Assembly: GCA_009699875.1 (NCBI GenBank)
Contig: WLNI01000002.1
Span: forward strand, 62,001 to 126,000
Origin: Actinomycetota bacterium
Lineage (GTDB): Bacteria; Actinomycetota; Acidimicrobiia; Acidimicrobiales; RAAP-2
Direction of reading: 5' to 3'
Length of the DNA stretch: 64,000 nucleotides
The translations under genes were made by a program, and so were the position numbers. Below the pieces are notes generated by a model that searched no databases, was not told the DNA's origin, and saw only the letters and a program-made list of their open reading frames with translations. This document shows, piece by piece, positions 4,009-25,958 of the stretch (position 1 is its first letter; every line of letters starts with the position of its first letter).

Positions 4009-4044
4009 ATGAATACCACGACCAAGACCCTGCTGCTTCTCTGA
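4009..4044 (+). CDS. leuL: leuA leader peptide (leucine attenuator)
   Basis: This reading frame of 11 codons plus stop encodes MNTTTKTLLLL, so its last four codons are leucine (CTG CTG CTT CTC). It lies about 125 bases upstream of leuA and is followed directly by a hairpin and then a U-tract terminator. This is the layout of ribosome-mediated attenuation: when charged leucyl-tRNA is scarce the ribosome stalls on the leucine run and readthrough into leuA follows. Such leaders are known before leuA in other actinobacteria. The peptide has no function beyond being translated, as far as can be inferred. The frame is too short for the ORF track, although the tail of a longer track entry ends at the same stop. 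Confidence 0.85.
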   Translation: MNTTTKTLLLL

Positions 4045-4045
4045 G

Positions 4046-4067
4046 GCGAGCGCCACACTGCGCTCGC
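4046..4067 (+). promoter_or_regulatory. Leader hairpin 1 of the leuA attenuator
   Basis: GCGAGCG pairs perfectly with CGCTCGC across an 8-base loop. The stem begins one base after the leader stop codon, so a ribosome on the leucine codons would block it. The alternative antiterminator partner is not clear by eye. Confidence 0.7.
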
Positions 4068-4074
4068 TAGTTCT

Positions 4075-4107
4075 CCTCCTGTGCCCATTGTGGCCAGGGG
4101 GTTTTTT
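4075..4107 (+). terminator. Rho-independent terminator of the leuA attenuator
   Basis: CCTCCTG-T-GCC pairs with GGC-CAGGGGG around loop CATTGT, with one bulged T and one G-U pair, and is followed directly by six T residues. It lies between the leader peptide and leuA, with no gene end nearby that it could otherwise serve. Confidence 0.85.
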
Positions 4108-4124
4108 ATTGGGCCGACAATGGG
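4084..4124 (+). repeat. Inverted repeat overlapping the leuA terminator
   Basis: CCCATTGTGGCC (4084-4095) can pair with GGCC-G-ACAATGGG (4112-4124), with a single bulged G. This pairing is incompatible with the terminator stem, because it uses the terminator loop and right arm. It can form only after polymerase has passed the U-tract, so it may act in the readthrough RNA. Confidence 0.55.
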
Positions 4125-6299: not shown

Positions 6300-6893
6300 C
6301 TAGCGAGTCGAGGGAAGAAAGCGCAACCGAGAGGTTTCATAGGCTGCAAGATCGCTCTCATATCGCATCGAGAGACCAATATCATCCCAACCATTCAAGA
6401 ATCTGTCTCTCGTGAACTCATCGAGAGGGAATGTGGTTGAAAACCCAAGCGCAGGAACTTCGAGCGTTCCCTTTGCCACATCAATAGTGAATTCAAGTGA
6501 CGGGTCTGCAGCGACCGCATCGAGAAGTGTTCTCCCGGCCTCTTCTGTGACTTGAACCGGAAGCAAGCCTTGCTTCGTACAGTTGTTTCGAAAGATATCG
6601 GCGAAACGAGGGGAGATCACAGCTTCGAAGCCATAGTCAGTTAGGGCCCAGACAGCATGTTCCCGAGATGAACCAGTTCCAAAGTTTGGACCAGCGATTA
6701 ATACGTTGGCTCCCTGGAACTCTTCATTGTTGAGGATAAATGATCGGTCATCTTTCCACTCAGAGAAGAGGCCAGCTCCAAACCCGGTGCGCTCTACGCG
6801 CTTGAGCCAATCTGAGGGAATGATCTGATCGGTATCGACGTCGGAGCGATCCAGCGGGACGCCACGTCCAGTGATGACGATGACAGGTTTCAT
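6300..6893 (-). CDS. leuD: 3-isopropylmalate dehydratase small subunit LeuD
   Basis: This 197-residue protein is the small swivel subunit of isopropylmalate isomerase. It works with LeuC to convert 2-isopropylmalate to 3-isopropylmalate. Family landmarks are [18 protein letters not shown] near the N-terminus and [17 protein letters not shown], the phosphate/carboxylate-binding loop. Length and C-terminal domain are normal for bacterial LeuD. It is the last gene of greA-leuC-leuD, overlapping leuC by 4 bases. In this organism the same enzyme should also act on citramalate, because cimA is encoded nearby. Confidence 0.96.
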
Positions 6894-8299
6894 GAGTCAA
6901 GATCCTCCGGGGTAGCAAAATGACCGGCAACAGCGGTTGCCGCAGCAATTGAAGGAGAAACAAGGTGCGTGCGGCCTCCTCGGCCCTGTCGTCCTTCGAA
7001 GTTTCGGTTGGAGGTGGATGCGGATCGTTCTCCCGGTGCAAGTTTGTCTGGGTTCATCGCTAAACACATTGAACAACCAGGCTCTCGCCACTCAAAGCCA
7101 GCTGCAAGAAAGATCTTGTCGAGACCCTCTGCCTCTGCTTGATTTTTGACACGATGAGAACCAGGTACGACAAGAGCCCGCATTCCTTTTGCCACAGTTC
7201 TCCCGTCAAGGATTGACGCAGCAAGTCGTAAGTCTTCGATACGAGAGTTTGTGCACGAACCAAGAAAAACGGTATCAATGGGAATCTCTTTGACCGGCGT
7301 GCCAGCAGTTAGTCCCATGTAGGTCAGTGCTCGAGCAGCGGCGTCACGTTCATTTTCGGTCTCGTAACTTGCTGGATCTGGGATGACGCTGTCAATTGGA
7401 ACTACCTGAGCGGGATTCGTTCCCCACGTGACGTGGGGGACCAAGGTGGTGGCGTCGATTGAGACTTCAACATCGAATGTTGCACCCTCATCGCTCGGAA
7501 GCGACTTCCAATAGGTCACAGCTTCTTCCCATTCTTGGCCCTTCGGAGCGTGGTCGCGACCCTTGATGTAGGCAAAGGTTGTCTCATCGGGTGCGATGAT
7601 TCCCGCTCGAGCACCGGCTTCGATGCTCATATTGCAGACGGTCATCCGGCCTTCCATTGAGAGCTCTCGAATCGCACTGCCCCGATATTCGATGACGTGA
7701 CCGATGCCGCCACCAGTCCCAATCTTGCCGATGATGGCCAGGACAATGTCTTTGGCAGTCACGCCGTCGGGAGGATCACCTTCGACGTTGACAGCCATAG
7801 TCTTGGCTCGAGTCTGGGGGAGTGCTTGGGTAGCAAGAACATGTTCGACTTCGCTCGTTCCAATGCCAAATGCCAACGCACCAAAGGCGCCATGGGTTGA
7901 GGTGTGGCTGTCTCCACAGACAATGGTCATGCCCGGCTGGGTGAGTCCGAGCTCGGGTCCAATGACGTGGACAATTCCCTGGTTGGCGTCTCCCATCGGG
8001 TAACAGGTGATGTCAAACTCCGCGCAGTTCGCCGTTAAGACGTCAAGTTGTTTCGCCGAAATGGGATCAGCGATGGGTTTGTCGATGTCGGTGGTTGGAA
8101 CATTGTGGTCAGCCGTCGCAACGGTGAGCTCTGGATGACGGACACGACGCCCCTCGAGGCGCAGGCCGTCGAAAGCTTGAGGTGACGTCACTTCATGCAC
8201 CAAATGAAGATCGATAAAGAGAAGATCTGGTTCATCGACACCCTTGTGGACGACGTGGGCATCCCAAAGTTTTTCTGACAGCGTTCGAGGACTGGTCAT
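6890..8299 (-). CDS. leuC: 3-isopropylmalate dehydratase large subunit LeuC
   Basis: A 469-residue aconitase-family large subunit carrying the [4Fe-4S] cluster. Cluster ligand motifs are visible at [11 protein letters not shown] and [32 protein letters not shown] is the usual substrate-binding segment. With LeuD it isomerises isopropylmalate and probably handles citramalate-derived intermediates. The ATG at 8299 overlaps the greA stop by 4 bases and its stop overlaps leuD by 4 bases, so greA-leuC-leuD is one tightly coupled unit. I saw no attenuator upstream of greA. Confidence 0.97.
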
Positions 8300-8858: not shown

Positions 8859-8887
8859 TTGACCCTGCCCGAAGAGTGCGAGAGACT
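8859..8887 (+). promoter_or_regulatory. Promoter of the leuB-ilvE-cimA leader transcript
   Basis: TTGACC (8859-8864) and GAGACT (8882-8887) are separated by 17 bases. GAGACT lies 8 bases before the leader GTG, the same spacing as in the leuA leader, so the transcript is probably leaderless. Confidence 0.45.
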
Positions 8888-8895
8888 GTAGCCCT

Positions 8896-8931
8896 GTGAA
8901 GACGACACCCCAGGTAACGATTATTCGATAG
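8896..8931 (+). CDS. Leader peptide of leuB-ilvE-cimA (Val/Ile-type attenuator)
   Basis: This frame of 11 codons plus stop begins at GTG and encodes MKTTPQVTIIR. It holds one valine and two consecutive isoleucine codons just before the stop. The downstream operon makes leucine (leuB), all branched-chain amino acids (ilvE) and isoleucine (cimA), so an isoleucine/valine sensor fits. The frame is exactly as long as the leuA leader, starts with a similar M-x-T-T, and is likewise followed at once by a hairpin and then by a terminator. The isoleucine run is short, so the call rests mainly on the shared architecture and the operon content. Confidence 0.72.
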   Translation: MKTTPQVTIIR

Positions 8932-8955
8932 GCGTGTGAGGGATCCTCACGCGCC
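8931..8955 (+). promoter_or_regulatory. Leader hairpin 1 of the leuB attenuator
   Basis: GGCGTGTGAGG pairs over 11 positions with CCTCACGCGCC, with one G-U pair and a GAT loop. The first stem base is the last base of the leader stop codon, so translation to the stop would disrupt the stem. Confidence 0.75.
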
Positions 8956-8963
8956 GTTCACGA

Positions 8964-8987
8964 CCGTCCACCTTGTGGGCGGTTTTT
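8964..8987 (+). terminator. Rho-independent terminator of the leuB attenuator
   Basis: CCGTCCAC pairs with GTGGGCGG over eight positions (one G-U pair) across a CTT loop and is followed by five T residues. It stands between the leader peptide and leuB; greA is divergent, so no upstream plus-strand gene needs it. Confidence 0.85.
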
Positions 8988-9057
8988 CATTTCTCACCGG
9001 GCCTTCTGAGCAAAAATGCCAGATCAGCCCACAACGACGAGGACCGAAGGAGCAGAA

Positions 9058-10086
9058 GTGGCGAGCACGAAGAACTACAGAGTTGCAGTCATTGGGGGCG
9101 ATGGAATTGGCCCTGAAGTGACATCCGAGGCACTCAAAGTCGTCGCCGCGTCTGGAGTCAACCTTGAAACGACTGAATTTGACCTTGGGGCATCTCGCTA
9201 CCAGAGGACTGGCGAAGTCTTGAGCGAAGAGACTTTGGAAGAACTCCGTGGATTCGACGCCATCGTCCTTGGTGCGGTCGGACCAGCCATTGGCGACACG
9301 TCAGTTCCTCCAGGCACGCTTGAGCGTGGGTTGTTGTTGAAGATGCGGTTTGACTTAGATCTCTACGTGAACCTCCGTCCCTTTACGGGGGTTCCTGGTT
9401 CCTTGGCCGAAGGTTGTGACTTTGTCGTTATCCGTGAAAATACTGAAGGCATGTACGCGGGCGAAGGAGGATTCCTTCGCAAGGGGACTCCTGCCGAAAT
9501 CGCCACGCAAGGCTCTGTGAATACTCGTTTTGGTGTTGAGCGCTGCGTTCGCTTCGCGTTTGAACTCGCAAACTCTCGAGCAGCAAAACATCTAACGCTT
9601 GTTCACAAGACCAACGTGTTGACGTTCGCTGGAGATCTCTGGCAACGAACAGTGAACGCTGTTGGACTCGAGTACCCAGAGGTCACGACGGATTACAACC
9701 ATATTGATGCAGCATGTATCTACATGGTTGAAAACCCTGGACGCTATGACGTCATCGTGACGGACAATCTCTTTGGCGATATCTTGACGGACTTAGCCGG
9801 AGCAGTTGCGGGTGGAATTGGGTTTGCTGCATCTGCGAATCTCAATCCAGACCGGACTGGACCTTCGCTTTTTGAGCCCGTTCACGGAGCTGCCCACGAT
9901 ATTGCGGGACAACAGAAAGCCAACCCCTTGGCGGCGATTGTCTCCTCAGCTTTGATGCTGCAACATCTAGGAGAAGATGATGCTGCGCAGCGAATTATCG
10001 CTGCGGTTCGCGACTATGCCGATAATGACCCGAAGAAAGACGCATCGACCAGTGAAATTGGCGATGCCATTGCAGGAAAGGTTTGA
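9058..10086 (+). CDS. leuB: 3-isopropylmalate dehydrogenase LeuB
   Basis: A 342-residue LeuB from GTG at 9058. The ORF track start at 9016 adds 14 residues that lie upstream of a good AAGGAG (9047-9052), so I prefer the internal GTG. The protein oxidatively decarboxylates 3-isopropylmalate with NAD. Family features are AVIGGDGIGPEVTSEALKV, VIRENTEGMYAGEGG, the catalytic-lysine region VHKTNVLTF, the metal-binding segment VTDNLFGDILTDLAG and EPVHGAAHDIAGQ. It is first in leuB-ilvE-cimA, under the leader and terminator upstream. In the citramalate route the same enzyme oxidises 3-methylmalate to 2-oxobutyrate. Confidence 0.96.
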   Translation: MASTKNYRVAVIGGDGIGPEVTSEALKVVAASGVNLETTEFDLGASRYQRTGEVLSEETLEELRGFDAIVLGAVGPAIGDTSVPPGTLERGLLLKMRFDLDLYVNLRPFTGVPGSLAEGCDFVVIRENTEGMYAGEGGFLRKGTPAEIATQGSVNTRFGVERCVRFAFELANSRAAKHLTLVHKTNVLTFAGDLWQRTVNAVGLEYPEVTTDYNHIDAACIYMVENPGRYDVIVTDNLFGDILTDLAGAVAGGIGFAASANLNPDRTGPSLFEPVHGAAHDIAGQQKANPLAAIVSSALMLQHLGEDDAAQRIIAAVRDYADNDPKKDASTSEIGDAIAGKV

Positions 10087-10089
10087 ACC

Positions 10090-11016
10090 ATGCCAATCAC
10101 CCCAAGTAAGAGCATCTGGATGGACGGCGAACTTGTCGACTGGGACAAGGCCACTGTTCACGTTCTCACGCACAGTCTTCACTACGGATCGGGAGCATTT
10201 GAAGGAATCCGTGCCTATAAAACCGACAAAGGTGTCGCCGTTTTTCGACTTCAAGATCACATTGAACGACTCTTTCGGTCGTGCCGGATCTTGATGATCG
10301 ATGTTCCTTACAGCGTTGAAGAGATCGTGAATGCGACAAAAGAAGTTGTTCGGGCGAATGAGCTCCACGATGGTTGCTACATCAGACCTCTGGTCTACCT
10401 CGGTTACGGCGAAATGGGATTGAATCCACTGCCGTGCTCGGTGAACGTCTCAATCGCAGCGTGGCCATGGGGGACCTACCTCGGCGACGAAGGGGTCAAT
10501 AATGGTGTCACGACGAAGATCAGTTCGTGGCAGCGCCATGACTCAAACGCAGTCCCAACCGCAGCGAAGAGCACAGGGATGTACGTCAACTCGTCTCTCG
10601 CCAAAGTCGAAGCGCTGAAGGCTGGGTATGACGAGGCGATCCTCCTCGCCCCAGATGGCAAAGTTTCTGAGTGCACGGGCGAGAACCTCTTCATCGTCCA
10701 TAACGGAGTGATCTACTCACCCCTGCATTCGGATCAAGGTTCCCTCGAGGGCATTACCGGAGAATCGATTGAGACGATTGCCAGAGACTTAGGCTTCGAA
10801 GTTCGCTATCAGCCGTTGATCCGAACGGATCTGTACCTTGCCGACGAGGCATTTTTAACGGGAACAGCAGCTGAAGTTGTTCCTATCCGTTCAGTGGATG
10901 ATCGCTTAGTTGGCGATGGAACGCCCGGGCCGATCACGAAGAAGGTTCAAAGCACGTACTTCGAAACCGTTCGCGGCGAACATAAGCAATATGACTCCTG
11001 GCTCGCGTATGTCTAA
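10090..11016 (+). CDS. ilvE: Branched-chain amino acid aminotransferase IlvE
   Basis: A 308-residue fold-type IV PLP aminotransferase, close in length to E. coli IlvE. The start region WMDGELVDWDKATVHVLTHSLHYGSGAFEGIRAY is typical of the branched-chain subgroup. The PLP lysine falls near AKSTGMYVNSSLAKVEA, and SECTGENLFIVHNG follows. It carries out the last transamination for leucine, isoleucine and valine. It starts 3 bases after leuB, and its last codons overlap the proposed cimA start. D-amino-acid transaminase and ADC lyase share the fold but lack this N-terminal pattern. Confidence 0.96.
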   Translation: MPITPSKSIWMDGELVDWDKATVHVLTHSLHYGSGAFEGIRAYKTDKGVAVFRLQDHIERLFRSCRILMIDVPYSVEEIVNATKEVVRANELHDGCYIRPLVYLGYGEMGLNPLPCSVNVSIAAWPWGTYLGDEGVNNGVTTKISSWQRHDSNAVPTAAKSTGMYVNSSLAKVEALKAGYDEAILLAPDGKVSECTGENLFIVHNGVIYSPLHSDQGSLEGITGESIETIARDLGFEVRYQPLIRTDLYLADEAFLTGTAAEVVPIRSVDDRLVGDGTPGPITKKVQSTYFETVRGEHKQYDSWLAYV

Positions 11017-12646
11017 ACACAGTCATGACATGGAGTCGCATCACTACGACTTACCGAACCTCCCTCAAGCGGTTGACATCTTTGACACCATCTTGAGAGA
11101 CGGGAGTCAACAAGAAGGTCTCTCGCTCACGGTCGAAGACAAGATCCGAGTAGCTGAACAACTTGATCATCTTGGCGTCGCCTATATCGAGGGTGGCTGG
11201 CCAGGTGCGAATCCGAAAGATACCGAGTTCTTTCGCCGCTTCAAGCACGAGCTGACCCTCAAGACATCAACACTCGTGGCGTTTGGATCAACTCGACGTG
11301 CTGGTCATGCGACCGAAAGCGACGAAGTGTTGCGCGCCCTCGTTGAGGCAGACACCGAGGTGGTGTGCATCGTGGCTAAGACCTGGGACCGCCATGTCGA
11401 AGAGGCGCTCAAGACGTCGCTTGATGAGGCTGTCGCTATGGTTTCAGACTCGGTGGAGTTCTTAACGAAGAATGACAAAAGAGTGTTCCTAGACGGTGAA
11501 CATTTCTTCGATGGTTTTCGAGAGAATCCAGAGTTTGCGCTCCGAGTCTTAGGTGCAGCCGAACAGGCGGGCGCTGAGTGTCTTGTGCTTTGCGACACAA
11601 ACGGAGGGTCACTCCCTGGGGATATCACACACACCGTGGCGCACGTCCGTGAATCGATCACTTCGACGTCGCTAGGTATCCACTGCCATAACGATGCGGG
11701 CGTCGCTGTCGCGAACTCACTTGCAGCAGTTTCAGCTGGGGTAACCCAAGTCCAGGGCTGTATCAATGGGTACGGAGAGCGAGCGGGCAATACCGACCTT
11801 TCGGCAGCGATTCCAGACCTCTCCTTGAAACTCAATGTTCGAACCATTCCACTCGAGAGGCTGGAGCGGCTGACGCCAGTTGCTCATCACATTGCCGAGT
11901 TGGTCAACCATGCCCCTTCATCCCAACAGCCGTATGTAGGCACTTCGGTGTTTGCACACAAGGGTGGGCTTCATGCATCGGCAGTTGCAAAGTCGAAAGA
12001 TCTCTATGAGCACATCGATCCTTCTTTAGTTGGAAATGGAACTCGAGTGGTGGTCTCAGAGATGGCTGGTCGCTCTACATTGGCGATGAAAGCCACTGAA
12101 CTTGGCCTTGACCTTGATGGGGCAGTCCTCGGTGAGATCCTTGATGAACTCAAAGCGTTGGAGCACGCGGGCTATCACTTCGAAGTTGCAGATGGATCTC
12201 TTGAACTGCTCCTGCGTCGAGCGACGGGATGGAAGCCAGAGTTCTTTGACGTCGAGTCCTATCGAGTCATCACTGATCACACTGGTGATGACTCAGGAAC
12301 GGTTACGACCGAAGCCACGGTCAAGGTTCGAATTGGTGATCAGCGATTTGAGGCAACGGCCGAGGGGAATGGACCGGTCAATGCCCTTGATGCGGCACTA
12401 CGAGAATGTATTGGCTCTCATTTTGGGGCCCTCGCCCATATCCGCCTCACTGACTATCGGGTTCGGGTTCTCGATACCGGAGTTGGCACAGGAGCGGTAA
12501 CCAGAGTGCTGATTGACTCTGACGATGGTGAGAAGACCTGGACGACCATTGGGGTTTCTGAGAACATCATCGAGGCCAGTTGGCAGGCGCTCTATGCCTC
12601 GATCATTTTTGGTCTCGTTCATGCTCAATTACGCAGCGACGGCTGA
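11009..12646 (+). CDS. cimA: (R)-citramalate synthase CimA
   Basis: From ATG at 11009 this is a 545-residue LeuA-like synthase. VDIFDTILRDGSQQEG and AYIEGGWPGANPKDTEFF are characteristic of the CimA branch and not of LeuA, which here is encoded separately. LGIHCHNDAGVAVANSLAAV holds the metal-binding histidines, and VFAHKGGLHASAV follows. The C-terminal domain is the LeuA-type allosteric domain. It condenses pyruvate with acetyl-CoA, feeding LeuCD and LeuB to make 2-oxobutyrate for isoleucine without threonine deaminase. The ORF-track start at 10910 would overlap ilvE by over 100 bases. ATG at 11009 overlaps it by 8 and is preferred. Confidence 0.93.
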   Translation: MSKHSHDMESHHYDLPNLPQAVDIFDTILRDGSQQEGLSLTVEDKIRVAEQLDHLGVAYIEGGWPGANPKDTEFFRRFKHELTLKTSTLVAFGSTRRAGHATESDEVLRALVEADTEVVCIVAKTWDRHVEEALKTSLDEAVAMVSDSVEFLTKNDKRVFLDGEHFFDGFRENPEFALRVLGAAEQAGAECLVLCDTNGGSLPGDITHTVAHVRESITSTSLGIHCHNDAGVAVANSLAAVSAGVTQVQGCINGYGERAGNTDLSAAIPDLSLKLNVRTIPLERLERLTPVAHHIAELVNHAPSSQQPYVGTSVFAHKGGLHASAVAKSKDLYEHIDPSLVGNGTRVVVSEMAGRSTLAMKATELGLDLDGAVLGEILDELKALEHAGYHFEVADGSLELLLRRATGWKPEFFDVESYRVITDHTGDDSGTVTTEATVKVRIGDQRFEATAEGNGPVNALDAALRECIGSHFGALAHIRLTDYRVRVLDTGVGTGAVTRVLIDSDDGEKTWTTIGVSENIIEASWQALYASIIFGLVHAQLRSDG

Positions 12647-12668: not shown

Positions 12669-13175
12669 ATGACCCAGCCCACATTTGTCCCGATCACTGA
12701 TTCGGATCAAGTTCGCCCTTCATTTCATCTTGAGAGCGCGTCACACGTCGTGGGGAAACTTTCTGAGGTTCATACCCCTCAACAGCCTGAAGGAAATGGA
12801 TTAGGTTTTCACGGGCCAGACCAGGGCTACGCCCTGACTCTCGCGAAGAGGATGGCGAAAAAGTTTGTTCTCACGCCAGGTGAAAACTCAAAAGACGTTC
12901 AAGTTGGTGTTGCCATGATTGCGGGGCGCAGAGCAGCGCTGATTGGCCGTGCACCAACGGTCTATGACCTTGAAGTAGCACTTGGGATCTTTGGCTTCTT
13001 GATGGCCGCCCCCGATGATCTTGTGGCCTATAGAAAAGGCGTGTTTCAGTCGCTAAGCCACAACTATGTTTCGCAGCGTGATCTCGTGGACCAGATACCT
13101 GATGCCACGTTGAAGCTCACTCCGCAAGACGTGGCAAGCCCACGTGCAGATTGGCGAGAACTCGTCGGAGCCTGA
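12669..13175 (+). CDS. Conserved hypothetical protein, 168 residues
   Basis: I do not recognise this protein. It is soluble, with no signal peptide or membrane span, and has a mixed composition. The middle part (YALTLAKRMAKKF, then VGVAMIAGRRAALIGRAP and a hydrophobic helix-like ALGIFGFL) looks like an alpha/beta or all-alpha domain, and the C-terminus is amphipathic. TAAGTT six bases before the ATG suggests its own leaderless promoter, so it need not be part of the leuB operon although it begins 22 bases after cimA. A convergent hypothetical gene follows. Codon use looks like that of the neighbours, so I see no sign of recent transfer. Confidence 0.75.
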   Translation: MTQPTFVPITDSDQVRPSFHLESASHVVGKLSEVHTPQQPEGNGLGFHGPDQGYALTLAKRMAKKFVLTPGENSKDVQVGVAMIAGRRAALIGRAPTVYDLEVALGIFGFLMAAPDDLVAYRKGVFQSLSHNYVSQRDLVDQIPDATLKLTPQDVASPRADWRELVGA

Positions 13176-21779: not shown

Positions 21780-22913
21780 CTAGGGCCGGCCGATGCCGGA
21801 GTACCCCATGCGCATTGGATTGATGCCGACGAAAGATCCCGTGTGTGGAGCCTCGATCATCATGCCACCACCGACGTACATCGCCACGTGGTCGCTGCCG
21901 CCTGGACCATAGAAGATCAAGTCACCAGGGGAGATGTTGCTAAATGGAACAGGAGTAGTGGCAGCCATTTGGGCCCCAGAGAAGTGAGGTAGACCAACTC
22001 CCGCTTGTCTCCATGCCCACATCGTCAAGCCAGAGCAGTCGAAACCTCCTGGGGAAGATCCTGCCCATACGTAAGGAGTTCCGATCTGTGATCGTGCTGC
22101 TGCGACTGCACCAGATGCTCCGGGAGATGGAGGAGGGGCGGGGAAGACTCGTTGGCTTCCGCCACCAGAAGATCCTGAGCTTGACCCACTGCTCACAGCG
22201 GATTGAGCGGCTGCTTGTTGCTGGGCCCGCTGTGCTGCTTGTTGTTGAGCCAACAGCGTGGCGACTTGGCCCTTGGCTTGAGAAAGTGCGGCATTTTGTT
22301 GTGCTTGAAGAGAGGCTGCTTGGCTCACGGCTGAGGCTGCGGCTTGGGTTGCTGATTCAGCAGCACCTTGTTGTGTTTGCAATTGAGCCTGCTGCGCATT
22401 GAGTTGGTCTTGAGAGTTGGCAAGTTTGGCAACGGCGGCATCAAGTGTCCCGTTGATAATCCGGCTGTACTCAGCTCGAGCTTGATAGTCCCGCTGGTTC
22501 GAAGCAAAAAGTGGGTTCGAGGATGATTGGGTTCCGTTCGAAATGTACGAGTTGATCGCAGCTTTCTTCAGTGAGACTTTGTCGGAGGCGACTTGCGCCT
22601 TGGTCTGATCGATCTGTGCTTGGGTCTGTGTGATTTGAGATTGAATCTGTCCGAGGTGATACTTGGCGCCGTTGTACTGCTCGCTGAGTGCTCCTAATTT
22701 GGAGTTCGTCGAGTTCAGTTCGGCCTGGATGGCTGAGGCCTGCGCCTGGGCAGTGGCGAGTGAAACTCCAGAGGCGGGGCGCGATGCTACAAACACCGTG
22801 CAGGAGAGCACAGTGATGAGGGCCAAAAGCGGACCTAGAGCCCAGCGGACATTGTGGTTGCCACGCTTGAACTGTGTCGTCGTTGGGCAGAAACTGCCGG
22901 CGGCGTCGTTCAC
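21780..22913 (-). CDS. Secreted NlpC/P60 peptidoglycan endopeptidase with coiled coil
   Basis: A 377-residue protein built like actinobacterial RipA-type hydrolases. An N-terminal hydrophobic segment (ALGPLLALITVLSCTVFVAS) acts as signal peptide or anchor. It is followed by about 200 residues of heptad-like, Q/A/S-rich coiled coil, a short serine/glycine and proline linker, and a C-terminal NlpC/P60 domain. The catalytic triad is visible as GFDCSGLTMW, DHVAMYVG and the third-position histidine in IEAPHTG. It should cleave D-Glu to diamino-acid bonds in peptidoglycan during cell separation. The coiled coil probably keeps the enzyme autoinhibited or docked to a divisome partner. GTG start. Confidence 0.93.
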   Translation of the reverse strand: MNDAAGSFCPTTTQFKRGNHNVRWALGPLLALITVLSCTVFVASRPASGVSLATAQAQASAIQAELNSTNSKLGALSEQYNGAKYHLGQIQSQITQTQAQIDQTKAQVASDKVSLKKAAINSYISNGTQSSSNPLFASNQRDYQARAEYSRIINGTLDAAVAKLANSQDQLNAQQAQLQTQQGAAESATQAAASAVSQAASLQAQQNAALSQAKGQVATLLAQQQAAQRAQQQAAAQSAVSSGSSSGSSGGGSQRVFPAPPPSPGASGAVAAARSQIGTPYVWAGSSPGGFDCSGLTMWAWRQAGVGLPHFSGAQMAATTPVPFSNISPGDLIFYGPGGSDHVAMYVGGGMMIEAPHTGSFVGINPMRMGYSGIGRP

Positions 22914-23066
22914 GATTCGTCTAGTCTCGCACCCTCTCAGGGGGGCCGCAAGGACACCTGTGCCTAGATGACCGAACCGACACGGGTCACTGAGGGTCGA
23001 AAGACCAGGTCACGGCAGGAATCTAGCCTTCCTTAGTGTTTCTCAGAAAAATGAGAGAAAGGGGGC

Positions 23067-23072
23067 TAGGTT
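23067..23072 (+). promoter_or_regulatory. -10 box, leaderless start
   Basis: TAGGTT ends 8 bases before the ATG at 23081. Confidence 0.5.
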
Positions 23073-23080
23073 CGTGGCTT

Positions 23081-23770
23081 ATGGGAGAAATCATAGAGTT
23101 TGCCGGTCAGTCTGAGACGCCAACTCGTGGGTATCTGGCAACCCCCGCATCCGGGAGTGGACCAGGCGTCCTCGTGATCCAAGAGTGGTGGGGATTGATC
23201 GATCAGATCAAAGGAGTCTGCGATCGCTTGGCCGATCTCGGCTTTCTGGCTCTGGCCCCCGACCTCTACGACGGTCGAGTCGTTCCTCTGGAAGAGCCCG
23301 ATGAAGCAGCCAAAACAATGATGTCACTGCAGTTCTCAGGAGCAGCAGACGATCTCTCCGGCGCTGTCGATGCGCTCTTGCAGCGAACTGGTCGACCAAC
23401 CATCGGGGTAGTGGGATTCTGCATGGGCGGGGGCTTGGCCCTTTTTCTCGCGAGTTCTCGACCCGATGCGGTCGCAGCCGTCGTCCCCTGCTACGGAGTC
23501 CTCCCCTGGGAAGAAGCTCATCCCGACTACACGGCGCTCAACGCAGCTGTTCAGATTCACTGTGCAGGAAAAGATGACTTCTTTACTCCAGCCGCAGCGG
23601 AAGAACTTGTTGGGGTGCTTTCAACTCTCGAAAAAGATGTGGAGCTGCATCTCTACCCAGAGAGCCAACACGCATTCTTTAATGAGGACCGACCCGAGGT
23701 TTTCGACGCGAACGCATCAAAACTGTTATGGGAGCGGACACTTCGATTCCTGAAAGAACAACTTGGATAG
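23081..23770 (+). CDS. Dienelactone hydrolase family protein
   Basis: A 229-residue alpha/beta hydrolase from ATG at 23081. The ORF track starts 15 codons earlier, but TAGGTT lies 8 bases before the internal ATG and the upstream codons have poor composition. The nucleophile is a cysteine, in VVGFCMGGGLAL, as in true dienelactone hydrolases. IQEWWGL supplies the conserved glutamate, KDDFFTP the aspartate and ESQHAFFN the histidine. The family opens cyclic esters such as 4-carboxymethylenebut-2-en-4-olide in aromatic ring degradation, but many members act on other esters. No other gene of that pathway is adjacent. Confidence 0.88.
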   Translation: MGEIIEFAGQSETPTRGYLATPASGSGPGVLVIQEWWGLIDQIKGVCDRLADLGFLALAPDLYDGRVVPLEEPDEAAKTMMSLQFSGAADDLSGAVDALLQRTGRPTIGVVGFCMGGGLALFLASSRPDAVAAVVPCYGVLPWEEAHPDYTALNAAVQIHCAGKDDFFTPAAAEELVGVLSTLEKDVELHLYPESQHAFFNEDRPEVFDANASKLLWERTLRFLKEQLG

Positions 23771-24755: not shown

Positions 24756-24815
24756 CGCGACCCAAACGAAGTGAGCGTTGTTTAGAAAAAAGAAGTTGCA
24801 GATCAGGGGGGGAAA

Positions 24816-25958
24816 ATGAACTATTTCAAATCAGTAATGTTCGCGGGGGTGGCCGCATCGGTAATCCTCGGAAGTGGACTTCCTGCTGGAGCAGCGTCCA
24901 GTCCAACGACTGCGAGTACGCCGCAGTACCAAAAGGCGGGCCCACTGCAAGTTGGGGTCACCACAATTGATCTTGGAAGTGCGGGAACGACGTTTGGTGA
25001 ACGAACTGCCACGGTGTTCTACCCCTCGTCGCTCACTGCTTCACAAGCAGCAACGACGGCAAAGTACAGCTACACCCAGGCGCAGACACTCCCCGCATCG
25101 ATTCAAGGGATTCTCCCCGCACAATTCAATACGACGACGACAATCAATGCTTACGGCGATGCCCCGGCATCAACGAAGGGTCCCTATCCCATCGTTCTTT
25201 TTAGTCATGGCTACGGAGGGGAGCGTTTGTACTACTCAAACCTCTTGGCAGGAATGGCGTCATGGGGCTATGTCGTTGTCAGCGCTGACTACTTTGAGCG
25301 AGGGATCGCAGCCCAAGCAATGAGTATCAAAACAAAACCAACTGCCGCCGATGACCAAAAGATCATGGCATCGTCACTCAGTGCCCTCAAAGCCGCCAAC
25401 ACGACAGCCACGTCGGTGTTGAACGGAGTGGCGAACCCAAAGAAGGTCGCAGCTGTCGGCCACTCCGCCGGTGGAGGAACGGCCTATACCGCGCTCAATG
25501 TTCCTGGCATCAAGACCGCTGTTGGATGGGCGCCTGTCGGGCCTTCCGGTAAGGCAAGCTCAAAGCCTGTGATGTTGATTGGGGCCCAAGGCGACAATGC
25601 AGTGACGCCAAAGTACGTCAAGAACGTGTACAACAAGTTCACTGGTCCAAAGTCACTGGTGCAAATATCTGGGGCTGGTCATGACACCTATACCGATGTC
25701 TGTGTCACGATCCGACAAGGTGGGGGACTGATCAACTACGCCCTGTCTCAGCATCTTGTAACACCTCAACTCGCCAAGTTGGCGACCAACGGATGCTTGA
25801 GCAGTGACCCGTCGCCTCAGTCGTTTTGGCCAGTGGTTCAGTACTACACAGTCTTTCAATTAGCGACGCAGTTCGCCAATAAAAACAGCACCGTCCCGGT
25901 TCCGGCAAAGGGTGCGTTCCCAGGCTTTCAAGTCAAGATCACTCAGCAGGGCACGTAA
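24816..25958 (+). CDS. Secreted alpha/beta hydrolase (lipase/esterase)
   Basis: A 380-residue exported serine hydrolase. It starts with a Sec-type signal peptide (MNYFKS, a hydrophobic core, cleavage near GLPAGAASS). The mature part has FSHGYGGERLYYSNLL (oxyanion region) and the nucleophile elbow AVGHSAGGGTAYTAL. An aspartate and histidine follow in the second half (LIGAQGDNAV and SGAGHDTYTD). The arrangement resembles platelet-activating-factor acetylhydrolase, chlorophyllase or polyester-hydrolase-like families. It likely cleaves esters outside the cell. A G-rich ribosome binding site lies just before the ATG. It is convergent with the next gene. Confidence 0.85.
   Translation: MNYFKSVMFAGVAASVILGSGLPAGAASSPTTASTPQYQKAGPLQVGVTTIDLGSAGTTFGERTATVFYPSSLTASQAATTAKYSYTQAQTLPASIQGILPAQFNTTTTINAYGDAPASTKGPYPIVLFSHGYGGERLYYSNLLAGMASWGYVVVSADYFERGIAAQAMSIKTKPTAADDQKIMASSLSALKAANTTATSVLNGVANPKKVAAVGHSAGGGTAYTALNVPGIKTAVGWAPVGPSGKASSKPVMLIGAQGDNAVTPKYVKNVYNKFTGPKSLVQISGAGHDTYTDVCVTIRQGGGLINYALSQHLVTPQLAKLATNGCLSSDPSPQSFWPVVQYYTVFQLATQFANKNSTVPVPAKGAFPGFQVKITQQGT

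Follow-up and report, generated by a model that had tools for sequence, protein, structure and literature searches.

A probable isoleucine- and valine-sensing transcription attenuator upstream of leuB-ilvE-cimA, conserved across Acidimicrobiia

Among the nearest known systems to the leader element described here are the ilvBNC and ilvB-II attenuators of Corynebacterium glutamicum, likewise actinobacterial, in which a short leader with Ile, Val and Leu codons is followed by hairpins and an intrinsic terminator before the genes (PMC11857589, PMC10272879). The likeness extends to the start of translation, as the ilvBNC leader peptide begins 1 nt from the transcription start and the leuB leader is also predicted to be leaderless, a state already known for leader peptides in Actinobacteria (PMC8079986, PMC11857589). 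These systems differ from the present one in controlling ilvBNC rather than leuB-ilvE-cimA or cimA. Furthermore, ilvBNC has an overlapping terminator and antiterminator with mutational support, of which no counterpart was found at the leuB leader, while P1 of the leuB element starts at the stop codon and not, as in ilvB-II, in a region overlapping the uORF. In Streptomyces, ilvL and leuL2 (the latter before leuS) combine a leaderless leader ORF of 12–13 codons with one or more hairpins and a U-rich terminator (PMC8079986, PMC1262725), but the genes concerned are ilvBHC and leuS, and for leuS candidate antiterminators have been drawn (PMC1262725). The LEU element before leuA in Actinobacteria is of another kind, having no terminator and Leu codons that pair with the leuA Shine-Dalgarno (SD) sequence in a pseudoknot (PMC1262725). 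The leuB element, unlike it, has a strong terminator, Ile/Val codons, leader-terminator pairing at shuffle level and leuB as its first gene. Lastly, pyrBI-type attenuation in E. coli (PMC4824070) offers a likeness of mechanism, with a ribosome near RNA polymerase preventing the terminator from folding and no antiterminator involved; there, however, the translating ribosome runs up to the terminator, whereas the leuB leader ORF stops about 28 nt short of it and an approach by way of P1 is proposed below.

A search of open-licence papers returned no case from Acidimicrobiia, no Ile leader on citramalate synthase and none on leuB-ilvE-cimA, and none of the nearest known systems in that literature pairs a stop-codon P1 hairpin with the lack of an antiterminator. 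Rfam, with its T-box, riboswitch and leader families, gave no match at gathering score in the window (the whole 64,000-nt stretch of DNA analysed), the best weak match reaching 12.7 bits against a cut-off of 52. A sequence-only reading of this DNA had noted no known description of an Ile-type leader on a citramalate synthase operon, and as far as the open-licence literature and Rfam reach, this holds.

The host assembly spans 1.97 Mb, is 91% complete and carries the window on contig C2. On the forward strand a TTGACC promoter is followed by a leader ORF, the P1 hairpin, an intrinsic terminator and then leuB-ilvE-cimA, with greA divergent (Table 1). The codons of the leader ORF are GTG AAG ACG ACA CCC CAG GTA ACG ATT ATT CGA TAG, so that, numbered back from the stop, the control codons are GTA (-5), ATT (-3) and ATT (-2). 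The layout of leader frame, 11-bp hairpin and terminator is as first described; the start codon is GTG, not ATG. The fold of the leader lies about 4 standard deviations below dinucleotide shuffles (z = -4.08), none of the 200 shuffles being equally stable. The genes leuCD, on the reverse strand at 6300-8299, separate the two units under attenuator control and run convergently to leuA, their upstream region lying behind greA.

Table 1. Coordinates in the window of the two leader elements and of the genes downstream of the leuB element
Feature	Position	Strand	Basis or remark
leuA leader ORF, peptide MNTTTKTLLLL	4009..4044	+	sequence; Leu at -4, -3, -2
leuA hairpin (4045-4068) and terminator (4075-4101), then U-run	4045..4107	+	folding; covariance model
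-35 element TTGACC of leader promoter	8859..8864	+	sequence
-10 element GAGACT	8882..8887	+	17-nt spacer from -35; ends 8 nt before leader start
leuB leader ORF, peptide MKTTPQVTIIR	8896..8931	+	36 nt; GTG start, TAG stop
P1 hairpin, 11 bp, loop GAU	8931..8955	+	folding; first base is the G of the TAG stop
Intrinsic terminator GACCGTCCAC-CTT-GTGGGCGGTT and U-run	8962..8987	+	10-bp stem 8962-8984, 6 nt past P1
leuB, 3-isopropylmalate dehydrogenase	9016..10086	+	NCBIfam NF002898, 507.7 bits, cut-off 393
ilvE, branched-chain amino acid transaminase	10090..11016	+	NCBIfam TIGR01122, 420.9 bits, cut-off 245.6
cimA, citramalate synthase (isoleucine entry enzyme)	11009..12646	+	NCBIfam TIGR00977, 670.5 bits, cut-off 450

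The element is conserved well beyond the host. Candidate copies were read in 48 of 57 loci of relatives from the region 5' of leuB, a few of these with another terminator or a degenerate leader, and a covariance model built on 38 of the leuB-upstream elements matched 234 of 395 sampled Acidimicrobiia genomes (133 of 183 genera), together with 8 genomes from elsewhere in the phylum. In the 100 copies whose gene context was read, the first gene is leuB in 74 (usually as leuB-ilvE-cimA), cimA in 21 and ilvB in 5. Over these copies, once aligned, compensatory changes occur at all 6 modelled P1 pairs and at 13 of the 16 modelled pairs of both helices, with 160 compensatory cells against 38 in shuffles; these counts lean towards the model, to which the alignment was fitted, but slid controls collapse. 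The geometry varies little: in every one of the 100 copies the T of the stop codon and the start of P1 are 0-3 nt apart, the linker between P1 and terminator measures 0-6 nt, and the distance from stop to terminator has a median of 28 nt (26-30 nt in 79 copies). In the leuB class the sequence of the P1 loop is free to change from one relative to another. A promoter of the form TTGAC-N16-19-xAxxxT precedes 81 of the 100 copies, compared with 12% of shuffled upstream regions. In 64 of those 81 the first in-frame start stands 6-10 nt past the -10 element, and an SD-like motif is present in just 8, a pattern in keeping with the predicted leaderless nature of the leader mRNA, whose translation would start near the transcript 5' end.

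The leuB-class terminator is near-invariant and keeps a U-G wobble, which is present in 79 of the 100 copies of all classes. Of 32 relatives with its exact form, 31 show the pattern once per genome and the remaining one twice, every match lying just 5' of a leuB copy; with one copy per leuB locus, it can be ruled out as a general terminator of these genomes. Identical terminator letters stand alone in unrelated proteobacteria, namely Vreelandella (L227, L247, L253) and Aquitalea (L206, L225, L260), with no branched-chain leader and no leuB at those loci.

Across the class, the control codons follow the product of the operon. Position -2 is Ile in 71 of 74 leuB-class, 20 of 21 cimA-class and all 5 ilvB-class leaders. 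Leaders of leuB-ilvE-cimA end in Val-x-Ile-Ile, with Val at -5 in 50 of 74 and either Val or Ile at both -4 and -3, while cimA-first leaders carry almost nothing but Ile from -5 to -2 (as in MTTATIIIITD and MTSLFSSIIIIP), ilvB leaders carry Leu, Val and Ile (LVVLIT, LLVVIT, LVVVP), and leuA leaders of relatives have Leu at -4, -3 and -2 in every one read. Where cimA is found apart from leuB (families f7, f49, f52, f55 and f60 of the sample), an Ile leader stands directly before cimA and no such element was seen in the upstream regions of leuB; in the f7 genome G145, for instance, the element occupies 24782-24859, between ilvE and cimA, with leuB at 22673-23593. That a detached cimA has the Ile leader and its leuB has none argues that the Ile leader goes with cimA. 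The codons proposed at the outset, Val and Ile rather than Leu with the Ile codons tied to cimA, are thus borne out by comparison, and non-conservation of the leader codons, which had been named as grounds for giving up the idea, is not what the relatives display.

The choice among synonymous codons is also biased, with non-preferred ones enriched at particular positions. ATT stands at -2 in 68 of 96 leaders of all classes against 9 expected from the genes' own usage, in contrast to Ile at -5 and -4, which is encoded by ATC in 74 of 81 cases. GTA makes up 55 of 122 Val codons in leaders where 5.8 would be expected, since the downstream genes use it for ~6% of their Val, and CTT is found at -2 in 25 of 30 leuA leaders. 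One explanation is that control codons are slower or sensitive to isoacceptor supply, in line with theory (PMC1183508), though an RNA-level constraint may also lie behind the bias.

A search for PF00585, the C-terminal domain of biosynthetic threonine deaminase, recovered it from controls including E. coli and C. glutamicum but neither from the host genome nor from 50 of the 61 genomes covered, an absence limited by assembly completeness and by deaminases lacking that domain; it argues that citramalate synthase is probably the main entry into isoleucine in the host. The true start of leuB is probably GTG 9058, behind AAGGAG, rather than ATG 9016, since most leuB homologues align from query residues 9-20. 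Directly after cimA lies a 168-aa ORF (12669-13175, forward strand) with no Pfam or NCBIfam match, whose homologues, 45-47% identical, likewise follow cimA at two other loci (L092 and L093); it may be a conserved partner of cimA.

The leuB element has sisters in the same genome. The leader upstream of leuA matches it in layout, with ORF, hairpin and terminator in the same order, and a leuA-trained model (R2) recognises the complete leuA element at 4021-4111 with E = 1.3e-21, a value to be read with the window being a member of that model. Further upstream, ilvB at C2:58420, about 3.6 kb before the window, is preceded by the leader MAQITSSRFALVVVP* and immediately afterwards by a hairpin and a terminator, CACCTCCCC-GGGGAGGTTTTTT (locus L351, ~58.3 kb on C2). 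The host genome therefore holds at least three branched-chain attenuators, as judged from their sequences, within about 13 kb: ilvB (Leu/Val), leuA (Leu) and leuB-ilvE-cimA (Val/Ile). The sequence-only reading had presented leuA and leuB as a twin cassette; the shared layout stands, but they are not a pair, the ilvB attenuator with its Val codons being a third. Nor does the equal 36-nt length of the two frames belong to a shared geometry, as it is a coincidence of the host genome, leaders of relatives varying from about 8 to 25 codons. Elements of leuA type were matched in 200 of 395 class genomes with the leuA-trained model, which also gives full-length matches to cimA, ilvB and some leuB elements (E 2e-8 to 7e-3), while on 179 kb it gave nothing else better than E 0.05; leuA leaders in turn score weakly with the leuB-trained model. 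Common descent of the leuA, ilvB, leuB and cimA elements is plausible on these grounds. The cross-model matches are compatible with, but do not prove, the earlier suggestion that one cassette was duplicated and retuned from Leu to Ile, and they reveal no direction of change. In the leuA P1 (4045-4068) the apical bases CGCC-CA are invariant across relatives, unlike the variable loop of the leuB P1, and could be a binding site. In phylum members outside the class (L314-L320), ilvB-type leaders end in LVLI-x-TAG and have a long P1, and in L315-L318 and L320 the leader lies about 400 nt before ilvB.

Taken together, the element is probably a ribosome-mediated attenuator of transcription, responding to the supply of isoleucine (and valine) and controlling leuB-ilvE-cimA. 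Jointly with this reading, it is likely to be one of several parallel Acidimicrobiia attenuators, serving ilvB through Leu/Val, leuA through Leu, and leuB-ilvE-cimA or cimA through Ile with or without Val. Of the features of classical attenuators (trp/his/leu type), product-matched control codons near the stop and an intrinsic terminator before the first gene are both present. The mutually exclusive antiterminator was not found in pairing and folding tests, tertiary or kinetic alternatives aside. Neither duplex energies against shuffles nor ribosome-masked folding gave general support for a 2:3 or 2:4 structure. The leader and the P1 arms pair with either arm of the terminator hardly, if at all, better than shuffled sequences do (mean z -0.6 to +0.6), and an antiterminator of ilvB-II type fares no better, whether formed by the P1 3' arm and linker with the terminator 3' arm (mean z -0.11 +/- 0.16) or by the P1 5' arm with the terminator 3' arm (mean z -0.6 +/- 0.15).

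The strongest rival is that a classical attenuator with an exclusive antiterminator (2:3, or 2:4 as in Corynebacterium ilvB-II) is present and was missed, being short, tertiary or purely kinetic. Every other part is in place, the U-G wobble kept in the terminators could mark a sequence held between two partners, and with codon -2 in the A site the mean terminator probability drops, modestly, from 0.95 to 0.85 and in some species to near zero. On average, however, the terminator remains dominant at every relevant ribosome position, the pairing of P1 and leader with the terminator arms stays near shuffle level, and P1 is similar across the leuB, cimA and ilvB classes while the terminators differ among these and the leuA class (ACCGTCCAC, ACCCTCCGC, AACCCTTCGC, AGCCGCCC, GACCTCCC). 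P1 and terminator thus appear to evolve independently, and a missed antiterminator is a serious but rather unlikely explanation.

A second rival would give the leader peptide a minor role and let a protein or small molecule bind the P1-terminator RNA, as has been suggested for the actinobacterial LEU element. The near-invariant leuB-class terminator, unique to its locus, and the partly invariant leuA P1 loop would suit such a ligand. The most consistent features are nevertheless the frame, its start and stop and the in-frame Ile/Val codons, which change with the operon product, while the leuB-class P1 loop is free to vary and similar P1 hairpins are combined with different terminators, all of which makes a ligand improbable. 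It is very doubtful, too, that the leader senses leucine or general translation, with the terminator acting mainly as a brake on an intergenic promoter: leuB and ilvE do also act in leucine and valine synthesis, yet just 8 Leu codons occur in the last six positions of the 74 leuB-class leaders, whereas the leuA leaders of the same genomes are Leu-rich. The notion of a chance short ORF before an ordinary terminator, for which the lone copies in Vreelandella and Aquitalea might speak, is already refuted by class-wide conservation with covariation, codon logic and position, and can practically be dismissed. Among other candidates, a frameshift or UAG read-through into the terminator was ruled out, the three frames being open in 88, 88 and 91 of 100 copies against 78 expected with none selected, and a Rho or cys-type leader lacking a terminator was ruled out by the terminator present; an RNA polymerase hairpin pause at P1 was judged by eye, the spacing from P1 to a possible pause being variable.

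In the Ile/Val-sensing attenuator, starvation for these amino acids would very probably lead to read-through of the terminator. The leaderless ORF would be translated while emerging from the polymerase. With Ile and Val plentiful, the ribosome would reach UAG, about 28 nt short of the terminator stem, and leave; it would there be too distant to disturb the terminator, which would fold and stop transcription. With Ile or Val scarce, the ribosome would stall on the Val/Ile codons at -5 to -2, P1 could fold at least partly ahead of it, and the shortened path to the terminator, now about 8 single-stranded nt, would let the stalled ribosome hinder terminator folding, so that RNA polymerase would read through. 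By distance calculation, stalling at -2 keeps about 5 bp of P1 intact and separates the ribosome from the terminator by about 8 unpaired nt. Repression of a terminator by a ribosome in E. coli requires the two to be within about 27 nt of each other (PMC4824070), and because the median distance here is 28 nt, a ribosome at UAG would just clear the terminator, a geometry that uses E. coli ribosome and polymerase dimensions. From a ribosome that clears the terminator at UAG and comes near it at -2 follows the speculative proposal, held with more doubt than confidence, that P1 acts as a ruler bringing the stalled ribosome within reach. The likeness of P1 across operon classes whose terminators differ in sequence also speaks for it. 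Several points weigh against it. When codon -2 occupies the A site, the ~5 bp of P1 that remain may be too weak to have an effect; the terminator is predicted to form at almost all ribosome positions modelled, which leaves the ON state without a base-pairing explanation; and the leuB-class terminator is more conserved than folding needs, which the ruler does not explain. Mutated ilvB and leuA leader codons in Streptomyces coelicolor, moreover, did not behave as classical attenuation (reported in PMC1262725), which counts against the attenuator reading as a whole. More tentatively still, the elements might form an attenuator class that works with no antiterminator, in which the stop-codon hairpin is the ruler, blocking of the terminator requires a ribosome stalled at the final control codons, and a change of codons alone serves leuA, ilvB, leuB-ilvE-cimA and cimA; one device could serve these four kinds of operon in this way because control codons and terminator are independent modules.

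The element is real, conserved and functionally coherent, and its reading as an Ile/Val-sensing attenuator is well supported by comparison of sequences. This probable regulatory system for branched-chain amino acids spans the class Acidimicrobiia and has apparently not been described before. The gene rearrangements amount to a natural experiment, in which the Ile leader accompanies cimA, and the fixed leader positions enriched in wobble or rare codons (ATT, CTT, GTA) provide a ready test of attenuator codon-choice theory (PMC1183508). The undetected antiterminator, in turn, poses a testable question: how a stalled ribosome controls a terminator beyond its linear reach.
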